Shown: positions 29,312 through 45,841 of the stretch, in pieces
Layout: each line of letters opens with the position of its first letter
Position numbering within the stretch: position 1 is the stretch's first letter
Origin: Bacteroidota bacterium
GTDB taxonomy: Bacteria; Bacteroidota; Bacteroidia; Bacteroidales; JAGONC01
Direction of reading: 5' to 3'
Assembly (NCBI GenBank): GCA_022711405.1
Contig: JAKLFC010000005.1
Span: forward strand, 1-64,000
DNA: 64,000 nt
Notes under the pieces: generated by a model
Told to the model about the DNA's origin: nothing
The model's database searches: none
What the model saw: only the letters and a program-made list of their open reading frames with translations
Made by a program: the position numbers and the translations under genes

Positions 29312-30270
29312 TAAAACCGTTTCCCCTGAAACGTATCTCTTTCCTCCAGCCTCCGTTCGATTCGCCGCAGCACCTCATCGTAGCGGATCCTGCCCCAGTT
29401 GGGCGCCACCAGGAAGCGGGGAGGGGCTTCGCTGGCAAAACGCTCGATCATGATCCCCGGTGACAACCGTTCGATGAAATCAATGACAAAATCAACGTAT
29501 TCCTCCAGACCAAACAGGCTAAAGCCGGCCTGACATTGCTCATATTCTCTTGCCATCGCTGTGTCGCGGAAGATCTGAAACTGGTGGAACTTGATCATCT
29601 GAAACGGCAGCTGCGAGATGATGGCTGCCTCACTGAGCATCTGTTCCCTCGTCTCACCCGGTAGCCCGAAGATAAGGTGCCCCCCTGCAGGGATTCCCAT
29701 GGATGCAGTTTTGCGGATGGCCTCTACGGTCTGCTCAAAGGAATGCTGCCGGTTGATCCGGTCCAGTGTTTCGTTGTAGCAGGATTCGATGCCATACTCC
29801 ATCAAGACATAGTGGTGTTGAGAGAACACTTTGAGAAGGGTCAGCTTTTCATCGTCAACGCAGTCGGGCCTGGTACCGATCACGAGTCCTACCACCCCGG
29901 GAAAGGCCAGCGCTTCGTTGTACAATTGCTCCAGCGTTTCAACGGATGCGTAGGTATTGGAGAAAGGCTGAAAATAGGCGAGGAAACGGCTGGCCCTTCG
30001 GTACCGGTTGGCGTGGAATTCTATGCCTTCGCTGATCTGCTGGCTGATGGACTTTTCAGGACGGCAGTAAGAGGGATTGAACGCCTCGTTATCGCAATAG
30101 GTGCAACCTCCCCGGGCAAGGGTGCCATCCCGGTTGGGGCAGGTGAAGCCGGCATCAATGCTCAGCTTCTGAATGCGCCCGCCGAATTTATTTTTTAAGT
30201 ATTCGGTGAAGGAGTTGAACCTTCGTGCGTTTCCCCAGGGAAAGATTGGTTCCCGGAGTGATGAGTGCAT
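29311..30270 (-). CDS. TIGR01212-family radical SAM protein (YhcC-like)
   Basis: A radical S-adenosylmethionine enzyme of the YhcC group. The 319 residues begin with the family N-terminus (PWGNARRFNSFTEYLKNKFG) and SIDAGFTCPNRDGT. The iron-sulfur cysteines are C44, C56 and C59, giving the wide CX11CX2C spacing of this family in CPNRDG...GGCTYC. GVVGLVIGTRPDCVD, YGIESCYNETLDRINRQHS and GGHLIFGLPGETREQM follow. The reaction is not established here. The POT transporter lies 21 bases upstream on the same strand. Confidence 0.88.
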   Translation of the reverse strand: MHSSLREPIFPWGNARRFNSFTEYLKNKFGGRIQKLSIDAGFTCPNRDGTLARGGCTYCDNEAFNPSYCRPEKSISQQISEGIEFHANRYRRASRFLAYFQPFSNTYASVETLEQLYNEALAFPGVVGLVIGTRPDCVDDEKLTLLKVFSQHHYVLMEYGIESCYNETLDRINRQHSFEQTVEAIRKTASMGIPAGGHLIFGLPGETREQMLSEAAIISQLPFQMIKFHQFQIFRDTAMAREYEQCQAGFSLFGLEEYVDFVIDFIERLSPGIMIERFASEAPPRFLVAPNWGRIRYDEVLRRIERRLEERDTFQGKRF

Positions 30271-41393: not shown

Positions 41394-44300
41394 TTAAAAG
41401 CCATCTTCCTCATCGGATTCTTCCTGCGATGGCTGGTTTTGTGAGGCTTTTTCCGCAGCCAGGATGGCATTCAGTTTTTGTGTTGCCTCTTTCCTGAGGT
41501 CTTCGCCCGGGTAATTGTCAATGATGGACTGCAGGGTCTGTTTAGCCTGGAACGTATTGCCCGTTCCTGCATAAATATCGGAAAGAAGGACAAATCCCCG
41601 GGCAACCCAGTAATCATAGGCGGCATACCTGTTGATCAGCTCAAAAGCCTGCTTTTCTGCATCCGGGTAGGCCTTCCTTTCAGTGTAGATCCACGCTATG
41701 TGATATTGCGACTCAGCAGCACGTTCATCCTGCACAAGCTCACAGGTTCGCTGAAAGGCTTTCATGGCCATATCCTGGTTCCCTGTGGCCAGGGAAGACC
41801 GGGCGAGAATGAAGCTGGCTTCAGCTTCTTTTTCCGGTTCTGTGAGTTCCATGGTGAGTACTTTTTCAGCCAGGACAGATGCCCTGTCATAGTTCTTCAG
41901 CAGAAAATGACAGCGCATCTGACCGGTCAGCGCGATCAGGAAGGAAGATTTCGTACTGGCGGCTTCTTCCAGCCTTTGATACAGTTCCAGTGCTCCGGGG
42001 AGATCACCCCTTTCAAATGTCAGGACAGACATCCTTTCCAGGGCATTTTCCGTAAACTGGGAGGGGGGCTGTTCCAGAACATACGTGTATCCCCGGATGG
42101 CTGATTCCTTGTCCTTGTTCCTGAGCTCGCATTCTGACTGATAAAAGTGTGCCTGCACCAGAAAAGCTCCCTGTGAAAAGCGTTCTGTATACTCTTTGAA
42201 TCCCCGGATCGCCTCCTTGCAATCGCCTTTCATGTACCTGTCCTCGGCCGTGAAGTAGCTCAGCGAATCCTGAGCCGACAGGGAAATGTCGGCAAAAGGA
42301 AGCGTCTGGGCATAGGTCAGGTATTCATTCACCCTGTTCAGATCCACATAGATATTGCGGATGATCTCCAGTGCTTCCCTTGATTCTTCCGATCCCGGGT
42401 AGTCTGAGATGACCTTCTTCAGGACTGAGATAGCCTGTTCGTTGCTGTTGTCATTATAGTAGATCAGGCCAGTTTTCAGAAGTGACTTTTTGATATACTT
42501 TCCGGAAGGGAAGTCCTGTGGGATCCTCCTGAAATAATCCAGCGCTTCCTGGTCCCTGTTCAGCAGGATACAGGTCGTTCCCAGTTCGTAGAGGGCCTCT
42601 TCGGTGTAGGTGGACCGTGGGAATACGGTAAGGTATTCCCTGAGCAATCCCGCCTTGCCTGCAAAATCTCCTTTCCCTCCTGTAGCCATCGCTTTTTGCA
42701 GCAGGGCATAATCACTGTCGCCTCCGGATAATGGTATGGCCTTATTGTAATAATCCACCGCCTCGTCATAATTTTTATTTACCAGGTACGAATCGCCCAG
42801 TCTAATGTAGGCGTCTTTCAGGTACTGTGTCTCTGAAGAGCCGGAGGAAGTGAACTTTTTGAAATATCCGATCGCCTGCTCATATCTCTTCAGATTGAAA
42901 TAGCAATAACCCAGGTTGTAGGAGGTCATGGAATACAGGGGAGTATGACTTGCATCCGCCAGTGTAAGGAATTTCTTATAATGTTCTGAGGCAAAATCAT
43001 AGGAACCCAGCCGGTAAAACGATTCCCCCAGCCAGTAATAGTTGGATGCATGAATGGTCTTGTCCAGCGGGAAATCCAGTGATTTTTTGAACATTCCGGC
43101 TGCCTCCGCGTAATCCTTGCTATTGAAAAGTTCGATCCCCCTGTAATGAGCTGCTTTCTGATAGGCAGCCCTGGTGGGGTCATCCTTGATGCGTATCTTT
43201 TCGATGGTCTCTATGGCCTCCTTATAATTGCTGGTCGACAGGAAAAGATTGACAAGATAACGGTTGGCCTCATCGATGCGTTTTGACTGAGGATAATCCC
43301 TGATATATTGTTTCAGGGCATTGATGGCTTCGCTGTAGGGATCAAAGGAGAGGTCGTATGCAAGCTTGGCATAATTGAAGAGGGCATCCTCCTTTATTGC
43401 GGGATCGAAATTCATTTTATAGGCAGACTGAAATGCGTTCAGCGCGAATTGCTTCTGGCCGGTGTTTACGTAACAGTCGCCAAGGTGATAAAATGCATTT
43501 TGTGCGACTGAATCCTGTGCACTCACCGATTTCTGGAATGCCTGAATGGCCTGGTCATACTTCCCGGCTCTGTAGCAGGCATATCCCAGCTGATACCAGT
43601 CCGGCACGTTCATCCTTGCCCCGGAAGACCTGCTGTATTTTTCCAGGAGCGGAATGGACTCGCTGTATCGACCTGTCTTGAAATAGGCATCTCCGACCAT
43701 TCTGAAGATGTCGGAAGCCTTTTTGTCTTCAGTCGAGCCTGTCAGCTGGTTGCCCAGGTTGATCACCTCCTGGTACTGCTGCTGCCTGTATTTGATTTGA
43801 ATAATGTAATAGGGAACGATATCTTTGAATGTTTGATCTTCTGTCAGTCTTTCAAATCCTTCGAGGGCTTCGTCGTCATCGCCCTTCAGGTAGGCGATGT
43901 GGGCATAATAATAATTGGCCGGACCCTGGTATACTGAGGGTGAATCCAGTACCTTCTGAAATGACTCCTCTGCCAGGGCCAGGTTATCTCCTTTGAGATA
44001 GCAGTATCCTGTCTTGAAATAATATTCATTTTTTTCATCACTGGTCAGCTGGCGCAGATCGGTCTTCTTGAATGCATCGAGGGCCGGTCGGTATTCCTTG
44101 TTGCGGTAGTGCAGCCTGGCGAGCTGGAATTGTGCCAGGTGAGCCATTGTGCTTTCCGGGTAGGTCTGGATGAAATCCGTGTACAGCTGGGTGGCGTCGT
44201 AGTGGTTAAGCTCGTAAGCGCAAAGGGCATTATAATAGGCAGCCTGGATCTGCATCACGGAATGGGGATCGGATATCTCCTGAACGATTTTCCGGAACAC

Positions 44301-44462
44301 TTCCTGTGCCGCACTGTACTTTTGCTTGCTGAACAGGTCCATGGCCATGCGGTAAGCGGCCGGCGGATCATCATAACTGACGGTTCGCTGGGCCATTGAG
44401 ATCAGTGGAGCCGCCGATATCACGTACGACGTGATCAGGATGCTAAGGAAAGCTTTCTTCAT
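41394..44462 (-). CDS. Large exported tetratricopeptide-repeat protein
   Basis: The ATG at 44462 gives 1022 residues with a signal peptide (MKKAFLSILITSYVISAAPL, cleavage near SMAQ). Almost the whole mature chain is TPR helices, recognisable from repeated A-x-x-x-F-x-x-a-l and Y-x-x-A motifs such as KQKYSAAQEVFRKI, KTGRYSESIPLLEKY and DQEALDYFRRIPQDFPSGKY. TPR arrays act as protein-binding scaffolds; in the periplasm of Bacteroidota similar proteins accompany outer-membrane barrels, as here (35 bases to the next gene). The C-terminal tail is acidic (QEESDEEDGF). The partner is unknown. Confidence 0.88.
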   Translation of the reverse strand: MKKAFLSILITSYVISAAPLISMAQRTVSYDDPPAAYRMAMDLFSKQKYSAAQEVFRKIVQEISDPHSVMQIQAAYYNALCAYELNHYDATQLYTDFIQTYPESTMAHLAQFQLARLHYRNKEYRPALDAFKKTDLRQLTSDEKNEYYFKTGYCYLKGDNLALAEESFQKVLDSPSVYQGPANYYYAHIAYLKGDDDEALEGFERLTEDQTFKDIVPYYIIQIKYRQQQYQEVINLGNQLTGSTEDKKASDIFRMVGDAYFKTGRYSESIPLLEKYSRSSGARMNVPDWYQLGYACYRAGKYDQAIQAFQKSVSAQDSVAQNAFYHLGDCYVNTGQKQFALNAFQSAYKMNFDPAIKEDALFNYAKLAYDLSFDPYSEAINALKQYIRDYPQSKRIDEANRYLVNLFLSTSNYKEAIETIEKIRIKDDPTRAAYQKAAHYRGIELFNSKDYAEAAGMFKKSLDFPLDKTIHASNYYWLGESFYRLGSYDFASEHYKKFLTLADASHTPLYSMTSYNLGYCYFNLKRYEQAIGYFKKFTSSGSSETQYLKDAYIRLGDSYLVNKNYDEAVDYYNKAIPLSGGDSDYALLQKAMATGGKGDFAGKAGLLREYLTVFPRSTYTEEALYELGTTCILLNRDQEALDYFRRIPQDFPSGKYIKKSLLKTGLIYYNDNSNEQAISVLKKVISDYPGSEESREALEIIRNIYVDLNRVNEYLTYAQTLPFADISLSAQDSLSYFTAEDRYMKGDCKEAIRGFKEYTERFSQGAFLVQAHFYQSECELRNKDKESAIRGYTYVLEQPPSQFTENALERMSVLTFERGDLPGALELYQRLEEAASTKSSFLIALTGQMRCHFLLKNYDRASVLAEKVLTMELTEPEKEAEASFILARSSLATGNQDMAMKAFQRTCELVQDERAAESQYHIAWIYTERKAYPDAEKQAFELINRYAAYDYWVARGFVLLSDIYAGTGNTFQAKQTLQSIIDNYPGEDLRKEATQKLNAILAAEKASQNQPSQEESDEEDGF

Positions 44463-44610
44463 CAACGTGACCAGGGATATTTACCTGTTAAAATTAGTGT
44501 TAAACCCAACGGGGAAAATGTGTAAGGATGTCTACTTATGAACATGGGGCTTTTAACAAGTAATACAAACGCCAGCCGGGGATGCTTAGTATATGAAGGC
44601 TCGTTACAGA

Positions 44611-44617: not shown

Positions 44618-44886
44618 GACAGCCGTCCGATAAGCCGGATTCTGTTCGTCCCCGTGTCAACAGGGATCTCTCTATCATTGATCTGGGATGGAAATCGCTA
44701 TCCACCTCAAGCAGCCTACCCATCCCGGTCAACCGGTATATACCGGTATCCAGGGCGAGCAACCCTGGGGTCTGGCCCGAGCCAGTGTCACTCCGGGACC
44801 TATTTGGCTTTGCAACCCATAAGGTTTACCCCTCCCGCATGTTGCCATGCGGGATCGTGAGCTCTTACCTCGCGTTTTCACCCTTA

Positions 44887-44905
44887 CCCTGAAACAAGTT
44901 CAGGG
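44887..44905. repeat. Palindrome copy 1, at the expected P12 of RNase P RNA
   Basis: CCCTGAAACAAGTTCAGGG forms a 7-base-pair hairpin inside rnpB, between the ACAGAAA and AAGGGTGAAA core segments. It matches the copy at 45004-45022 in 16 of 19 positions. Confidence 0.75.
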
Positions 44906-45003
44906 CGGTAATTTTCTGTGGCACTTTCTGTAGAAAACCGGTCTTCACCGGTTTCCTCCTACCCGTTAGGTAGTATGGCGCTCTGTGTTGTCCGGACTTT
45001 CCT

Positions 45004-45022
45004 CCCTGAAACGGGTTCAGAG
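45004..45022. repeat. Palindrome copy 2, at the expected P3 of RNase P RNA
   Basis: CCCTGAAACGGGTTCAGAG pairs as a 7-base-pair hairpin (with one G-U) next to the P4 strand. It differs from the copy at 44887-44905 at three positions. Confidence 0.7.
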
Positions 45023-45130: not shown

Positions 45131-45841
45131 ATGCTGACCAGCCGGAAAAACATCCTTTTTATCGTACTGGCAGGTTTTTTCGTGACCAATGCCGTGGTCG
45201 GAGAGCTCATTGGCGGTAAACTCATCCAGCTGGGACCCTTCACCATGAGCATCGGGATCATCCCCTGGCCGGTGGTGTTCCTGAGCACTGATTTGATCAA
45301 TGAATATTATGGAAAGAAGGGTGTCAGGAAACTGACCCTGCTCACCGTGATCCTGATCCTGTATACGTTCATCATTCTTTTTGGGGGGATGAGCATCCCT
45401 GCCTCGGGGATCTCGCCAGTCGGCGATGAGCAATTCAGGGCGGTCTTTGGGCAGTCGATGTGGATCATAGCCGGGAGCATTACAGCTTTTCTGGCTTCCC
45501 AGCTTACCGACGTGCTCGTATTCTGGTTCATTCGCAACCGTACCGGTAAAAAAATGATATGGCTCCGTGCCACCGGCTCGACGGTCATTTCACAGCTGAT
45601 CGATACCTTTATCGTGACCGGCATTGCCTTCTGGCTGACCGGAAAGCTGACCTTTGGCGAATACGTCAACACTGCCGTAACAGGCTACCTGGTCAAACTC
45701 ATCATTGCCATTCTGATCACCCCCCTGATTTACCTGGGACATTATCTGATCCATCGATACCTGGGAGAGGAGCAGAGCGAACAAATCATTGCGGAAACCG
45801 CAATCAGCAGTCAGCAGTCAGCAGTCAGCAGTCAACAGTAA
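45131..45841 (+). CDS. Queuosine precursor transporter (YhhQ family)
   Basis: Integral membrane protein that imports a 7-deazaguanine precursor for queuosine tRNA modification. The 236 residues have about six helices, with the family segments VVGELIGGKLIQLGPFTMS, PWPVVFLSTDLINEYYGKKG near the N-terminus and ATGSTVISQLIDTFIVTGIA in the second half. The last twelve residues (ISSQQSAVSSQQ) are encoded by the heptamer array at 45804-45838 and are absent from the expected family end. It diverges from rnpB and converges with the Smr gene. Confidence 0.9.
   Translation: MLTSRKNILFIVLAGFFVTNAVVGELIGGKLIQLGPFTMSIGIIPWPVVFLSTDLINEYYGKKGVRKLTLLTVILILYTFIILFGGMSIPASGISPVGDEQFRAVFGQSMWIIAGSITAFLASQLTDVLVFWFIRNRTGKKMIWLRATGSTVISQLIDTFIVTGIAFWLTGKLTFGEYVNTAVTGYLVKLIIAILITPLIYLGHYLIHRYLGEEQSEQIIAETAISSQQSAVSSQQ

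Follow-up and report, generated by a model that had tools for sequence, protein, structure and literature searches.

How the stems of structured RNAs change and yet stay paired is a standing question. Such change is usually explained by compensatory substitutions made step by step, and of late also by inverted template switching. The question arises in a particular form in the RNase P RNA gene (rnpB) of a Bacteroidota bacterium (genome G000), in which two separate hairpins of the same molecule have nearly the same sequence. How did two peripheral stems of one essential RNA come to be alike?

A predicted class A RNase P RNA and its two matching hairpins

The window, by which we mean the whole stretch of 64,000 nucleotides that was analyzed, contains a single class A RNase P RNA at 45041-44615 on the minus strand (cmscan, Rfam RF00010), with a score of 256.8 bits against a gathering cut-off of 100 and an E value of 1.6e-82. 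This covariance match is full length, spanning model positions 1-367 of 367 with all core blocks, and it is the one match that an RF00010 search of the whole genome returned. The locus is predicted to be an ordinary class A RNase P RNA, which resembles the bacterial class A RNAs of RF00010 in its full-length match, core blocks and single copy; its oddity, and its sole difference from them, is the sequence common to two peripheral hairpins. Divergent from rnpB in the ORF list is an open reading frame on the plus strand (45131..45841) encoding a hydrophobic protein, which we take to resemble the queuosine precursor transporter YhhQ; the 3' end of this ORF (window 45800-45841) is a short in-frame tandem repeat, ISSQQSAVSSQQ. 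Downstream of rnpB, the list places an ORF on the minus strand (41394..44465) for a large protein that appears by eye to be tetratricopeptide-repeat-like.

On the plus strand the two hairpins read CCCTGAAACAAGTTCAGGG (44887-44905) and CCCTGAAACGGGTTCAGAG (45004-45022), and both the positions and the 16/19 identity described in the first-pass annotation were borne out. That annotation had assigned the two to helices P12 and P3 by position, and in the covariance check that we ran the RF00010 structure line agrees with the assignment; P3 and P12 are the names that we take these helices to bear, the Rfam line itself consisting of brackets only. In the RNA, which is read from the minus strand, P3 (CUCUGAACCCGUUUCAGGG, 45004..45022) and P12 (CCCUGAACUUGUUUCAGGG, 44887..44905) each have a 7 bp stem and a 5 nt loop according to that structure line and lie 117 nt apart, with predicted fold energies of -5.6 and -8.6 kcal/mol, respectively. 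In single-sequence folding, the native P3 pairing has a probability of 0.03-0.04, compared with 0.79-0.99 for P12, because the folding program, which does not admit pseudoknots, pairs the 5' arm of P3 elsewhere; support for P3 therefore comes from the covariance model.

Judged from sequence, the recurrence of a single hairpin at two peripheral sites in the RNase P RNA is real and lineage-specific. Since P3 and P12 are peripheral and variable, RNase P RNA function is presumably unaffected and no altered function is indicated; we regard the repeat as a small evolutionary curiosity and not as a new function. Repeated DNA within an RNase P RNA gene, tolerated by the essential RNA, has a counterpart in heterocyst-forming cyanobacteria, in whose rnpB Vioque reportedly described STRR repeats in 1997. 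STRRs are short tandem units that occur at many genome places; in contrast, G000 has two hairpins separated by the distance given above, with no other copies and no tandem units. A literature search over titles and abstract openings, which reached few of the subscription papers and in which absence is weak evidence, returned nothing on sequence common to RNase P RNA helices.

Relatives and the direction of change

We compared the locus with family relatives from within the genus (G001 and G002) and from outside it (G003 and G004). Among the named genomes, the family-type rnpB pattern was found in G001, G002 and G003 only, in a search outside which the window's own genome possibly lay. The first-pass annotation had named unrelated stems in all relatives as the sign of a coincidental likeness; instead, G002 carries the same pair of hairpins, CTCTGAACCTGTTTCAGGG and CCCTGAACCCGTTTCAGGG, which are 17/19 alike. 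In the longest aligned block around rnpB, DNA identity is 79.9% between G000 and G002, compared with 73.8% between G000 and G001 and 73.4% between G001 and G002, and G000 and G002 are therefore taken as sisters. Because both sisters have the pair, the P12-like P3 appears to predate their split. Moreover, copies are about equally alike within and between the two species (18/19 for the P3 of G000 and the P12 of G002, and 17/19 for the other between-species comparison), which fits a duplication older than the split. In a parsimony assessment of the loop bases made by eye, the ancestral copies were not clearly more alike than the present-day ones.

G001 has a different P3 (CTGCCGGTCTGGTACCGGCAG) and a P12 (CCCTGAATTCGTTTGGGG) that is recognisably related to the P12 of G000 and G002. 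In neither G003 nor G004, both outside the genus, is the P3 that of the two carriers; the P12 of G003 (CCCTTGATTTTATCAGGGG) has CCCT...CAGGG in common with theirs, and that of G004 is unrelated. Across 393 Bacteroidales genomes, the P3 of the carriers together with the conserved block that follows it was found, with up to 3 mismatches, in two genomes, namely G000 and G002. On the species tree the recipient helix is derived and the donor helix older, as expected of intragenic copying: because this type of P3 is confined to G000 and G002 and the P12 is recognisable in G001, P3 is the helix that changed and P12 is likely the donor, with few species, three congeners in total, behind both the donor and the direction.

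The best explanation of this distribution, and a reasonably probable one, is that P3 was overwritten by a copy of P12 in the ancestor shared by G000 and G002. The proposal in the first-pass annotation that one helix had been copied to the other is thereby retained as the best remaining explanation, with P3 as the helix that changed in that ancestor, P12 as the older one, and chance as the main rival. We infer that the event was copying and that P12 was the donor: the P12 hairpin, 117 nt further along the RNA, would have been copied onto P3 in direct orientation, through a local template jump of short range or a non-reciprocal exchange, perhaps aided by the flanking CGC and GGG that the two stems have in common. 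Such a change would have been tolerated by selection, both helices being peripheral stems that need to pair but whose particular sequence is nearly irrelevant, and drift would since have altered one or two loop bases in the copies. If this is true, RNA stems would have an additional way to change, namely wholesale replacement by a copy of another stem within one molecule.

The orientation of the match bears on the mechanism. Direct matches exceed reverse-complement matches in both carriers (16 vs 14 of 19 positions in G000 and 17 vs 15 of 19 in G002), the difference being two positions, and since the loop of P3 is closer to that of P12 when both are read in the same direction, a direct local copy is slightly favored over an inverted template switch. 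In the template switching of RNA genes, a single replication error rewrites an entire stem with its pairing kept, and the mechanism yields reverse-complement copies (Monttinen and Loytynoja, 2022; PMC8794818). The change proposed for P3 would be similar to that account in that a whole stem was rewritten at once and is still paired, and would differ from it in that direct orientation fits better and two different hairpins are joined. The term RNase P is absent from the part of the text of PMC8794818 considered here.

Alternatively, a single factor might bind both stems, or both might require one particular sequence, in which case selection would have made, or would keep, their likeness. The likeness has outlived approximately 20% divergence of the surrounding DNA, as would be consistent with such selection, but the Bacteroidota rnpBs examined (54 and 159) show free variation of P3 and P12 in both sequence and length, the congener G001 has neither this P3 nor the exact P12, and strand exchange between P3 and P12 has a predicted probability of 0.000. 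We therefore consider functional convergence of the two stems extremely unlikely, and copying of P12 over P3 continues to be the preferred reading.

Chance likeness and a survey of Bacteroidota rnpB genes

An essential single-copy gene with variable helices and very many sequenced relatives, rnpB is well suited to counting such events. The loci surveyed comprise 56 from 57 genomes with a match (G056 was omitted) and 110 from 176 genomes with a match, the latter made up of the 30 best-scoring loci and 80 picked by hand for their spread over genera. All anchors were present in 160 of the 166 loci (L065, L166, L168, L170, L183, and L187 were dropped), and where two anchor candidates were obtained, as happened at 11 loci, the first was used. 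The resulting 160 rnpBs include some congeners and are not independent. For the comparison of P3 with P12 one more locus was lost on account of its window length, leaving 159.

The main rival to copying is chance, in which two short GC-closed hairpins would have drifted independently into likeness in an ancestor from which G000 and G002 then inherited them. Simulated pairs of hairpins with the same length and the same outer bases reached 16/19 in 68 of 1,000,000 cases, i.e., about 7 in 100,000 for the P3/P12 pair alone, and this per-pair probability of less than 1 in 10,000 argues against chance. The pair was, however, picked for looking striking, and the simulated figure rises to approximately 0.0007-0.003 when taken over 10-45 helix pairs, with 0.0014 (about 1 in 1,000) for 21 pairs. 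The effective information is likewise low: beyond the consensus bases of P3 and P12 the match amounts to a 5 bp stem and three loop bases, and about five freely varying pairs with a 5 nt loop hold little information, in favor of chance.

When the P3 of one genome was compared with the P12 of another, an ungapped score of at least 16 was reached in 3 of 25,122 comparisons; two of these are between G000 and G002, and with those set aside the count is 1 in 25,120 (L112 with L156). This last score is as good as that of G000 and was obtained between unrelated genomes; when many genomes are scanned, an occasional pair of this kind is to be expected. Within genomes, P3 and P12 score 16 in G000 and 17 in G002, which were counted as one event, and no other own pair among the 159 rnpBs exceeds 11; copying of P12 to P3 was therefore not seen again.

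Comparison of each whole RNA with itself, on the other hand, argues against chance. Direct ungapped self-matches of at least 14 occur in 11 of the 160 rnpBs, compared with 1 of 160 in a reversed-sequence control, and those of at least 16 in 8 compared with none, G000 and G002 being among both the 11 and the 8 and the others having been picked independently of the G000 pair; the latter excess makes copying plausible in general. The reversed-sequence control was used in place of a whole-RNA cross-genome null, which pointed the opposite way, with cross-genome matches more frequent than own matches, and was discarded because differences in length let homologous core segments match. For P3 and P12, the evidence against chance is strong for the single comparison and moderate once it is taken into account that striking pairs were looked for, and chance is a possible, though rather doubtful, source of the likeness.

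The same rnpB contains a second repeated hairpin motif, ACCGGTNNNNACCGGT, found by motif search on the minus strand in the arm after P9 (44937..44952, the P10/P11 region by position) and in the P16/P17 region by position (44732..44747). Its stem, ACCGGT, is its own reverse complement. With up to 1 mismatch the motif occurs in the window at these two sites only, where 0.06 are expected, and the whole G000 genome has three exact sites, two of them in rnpB. The pair scores 13. Among 12,000 cross-genome comparisons 18 score as high, and at the 130 of 160 loci with regions long enough to compare, G000 itself is the one whose own pair does so; the corresponding regions of the sister G002 score 6. 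Being statistically near chance, this pair was treated as a curiosity and was not used as support for copying.

Dispersed palindromes and repeated hairpins in other genomes

The first-pass annotation had also proposed that a small dispersed palindrome entered the RNA twice, i.e., that one palindromic element was inserted into both P3 and P12. Genome-wide motif counts largely refute this for G000: the CTGAAC-type motif CTGAACNNGTTTCAG has three exact sites in G000, the two rnpB stems and one coding site, and two in G002, both of them rnpB stems, and in genome-wide searches it has no site in G001 or G003 and one in G004, outside rnpB and between two ORFs. The coding site, on contig 26 of G000, is in frame (SPLKPVQI) within a 369 aa ORF that is ABC permease-like by eye, and it was taken as chance and not as a dispersed copy. 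A looser search of G000 with up to 2 mismatches gave 27 strand hits, compared with none for the reversed pattern; the further sites all differ by 2 mismatches, a good many lack symmetry, and they were rejected as copies of the stem.

An RPE/REP-like element would be expected in many, mostly intergenic copies, compared with the three exact sites of G000, and as an insertion that lengthens the stem. The family alignment contains no such lengthening, the P3 of the carriers being shorter than that of G001 and their P12 equal in length to that of G003 and 1 nt longer than that of G001. In favor of dispersal, the process does exist in the phylum, the rnpB of G016 being an example, and G000 has TCCCGA...TCGGGA palindromes of its own (12 places compared with 3 in the reversed control). 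We nonetheless reject a dispersed palindrome as the source of the two stems in G000, where we consider it very improbable, and retain copying of P12 over P3. Palindromes of the TCCCGACNTTCGTCGGGA type occur on contig 3 of G000 (102448-112064), with five inside 10 kb, as well as on other contigs.

The palindromic elements of Rickettsia are dispersed palindromes inserted into RNA genes. The hairpins of G000 are comparable to them as palindromes in tolerant stems of a structured RNA, and differ from them in having no dispersed copies in either G000 or its sister G002; the literature search returned no paper with both terms for palindromic elements inserted in RNA genes. G016, in contrast, is of the Rickettsia kind. 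Its rnpB (L023, contig 402:5048-5486) has TCCCGATWGCTATCGGGA in P12 and a copy one base shorter at the start in the P16/P17 region, with a third copy of the hairpin just past the end of the gene, and TCCCGATTGCTATCGGGA occurs within 1 mismatch at 13 places in the genome. On these counts the G016 hairpin really is a dispersed palindrome, the situation imagined in the first-pass annotation but in another genome, and a single gene thus lets a private duplicate (G000) be set cleanly against a true dispersed palindrome (G016). G016 was flagged by a region-by-region comparison that served for this alone, as it located the four regions in 22, 25, 21, and 21 of the 54 sequences and in some rows put P9-11 and P12 in the wrong place.

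Seven of the 11 rnpBs with self-matches of at least 14 have clean hairpin pairs (G000, G002, G016, G178, G090, G141, and G205), representing six lineages, in which helices other than P3 and P12 are named by position only. L120, L135, and L161 were rejected as cases of repeated hairpins because their matches are not of single hairpins, and G060 (L090), with the top score of 21, was set back because its flanks are native to its family, being shared by relatives. In G205 (L112), the final pair of hairpins in rnpB, P18 and P19 by position (contig 8:29642-29661 and 29681-29700), is 19/20 identical, TGCTGATGGCAACATCRGCA, and beyond these two rnpB sites the genome has none closer than 2 mismatches; this is the cleanest non-dispersed repeat, and it resembles the case of G000. 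In G178 (L165), P3 and the last hairpin are alike, with a related third hairpin between them; in G090 (L143), the last hairpin is identical (18/18) to an additional one that follows P14; and in G141 (L106), the hairpins of the P16/P17 region and P18 are alike.

Helix-to-helix copying may tentatively be read as a recurrent means by which peripheral RNase P RNA stems are renewed in Bacteroidota, either in direct orientation or from genomic palindromes, although we hold this less likely than not to be general. Direct copies would then include that of P12 to P3 in G000 and the two 3'-end hairpins of G205, and stems supplied by palindromes would include those of G016 and possibly those of G178, G090, and G141. 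If true, a stem would change in one step without unpaired intermediates. Hairpins of the TCCCGA...TCGGGA kind occur at 9 places in G178 compared with 1 in the reversed control, at 12 compared with 0 in G090, and at 13 compared with 0 in G141. Two or three rnpB hairpins of the TCCCGA...TCGGGA type, or near it, are present in each of L165, L143, L106, and L097 (G235).
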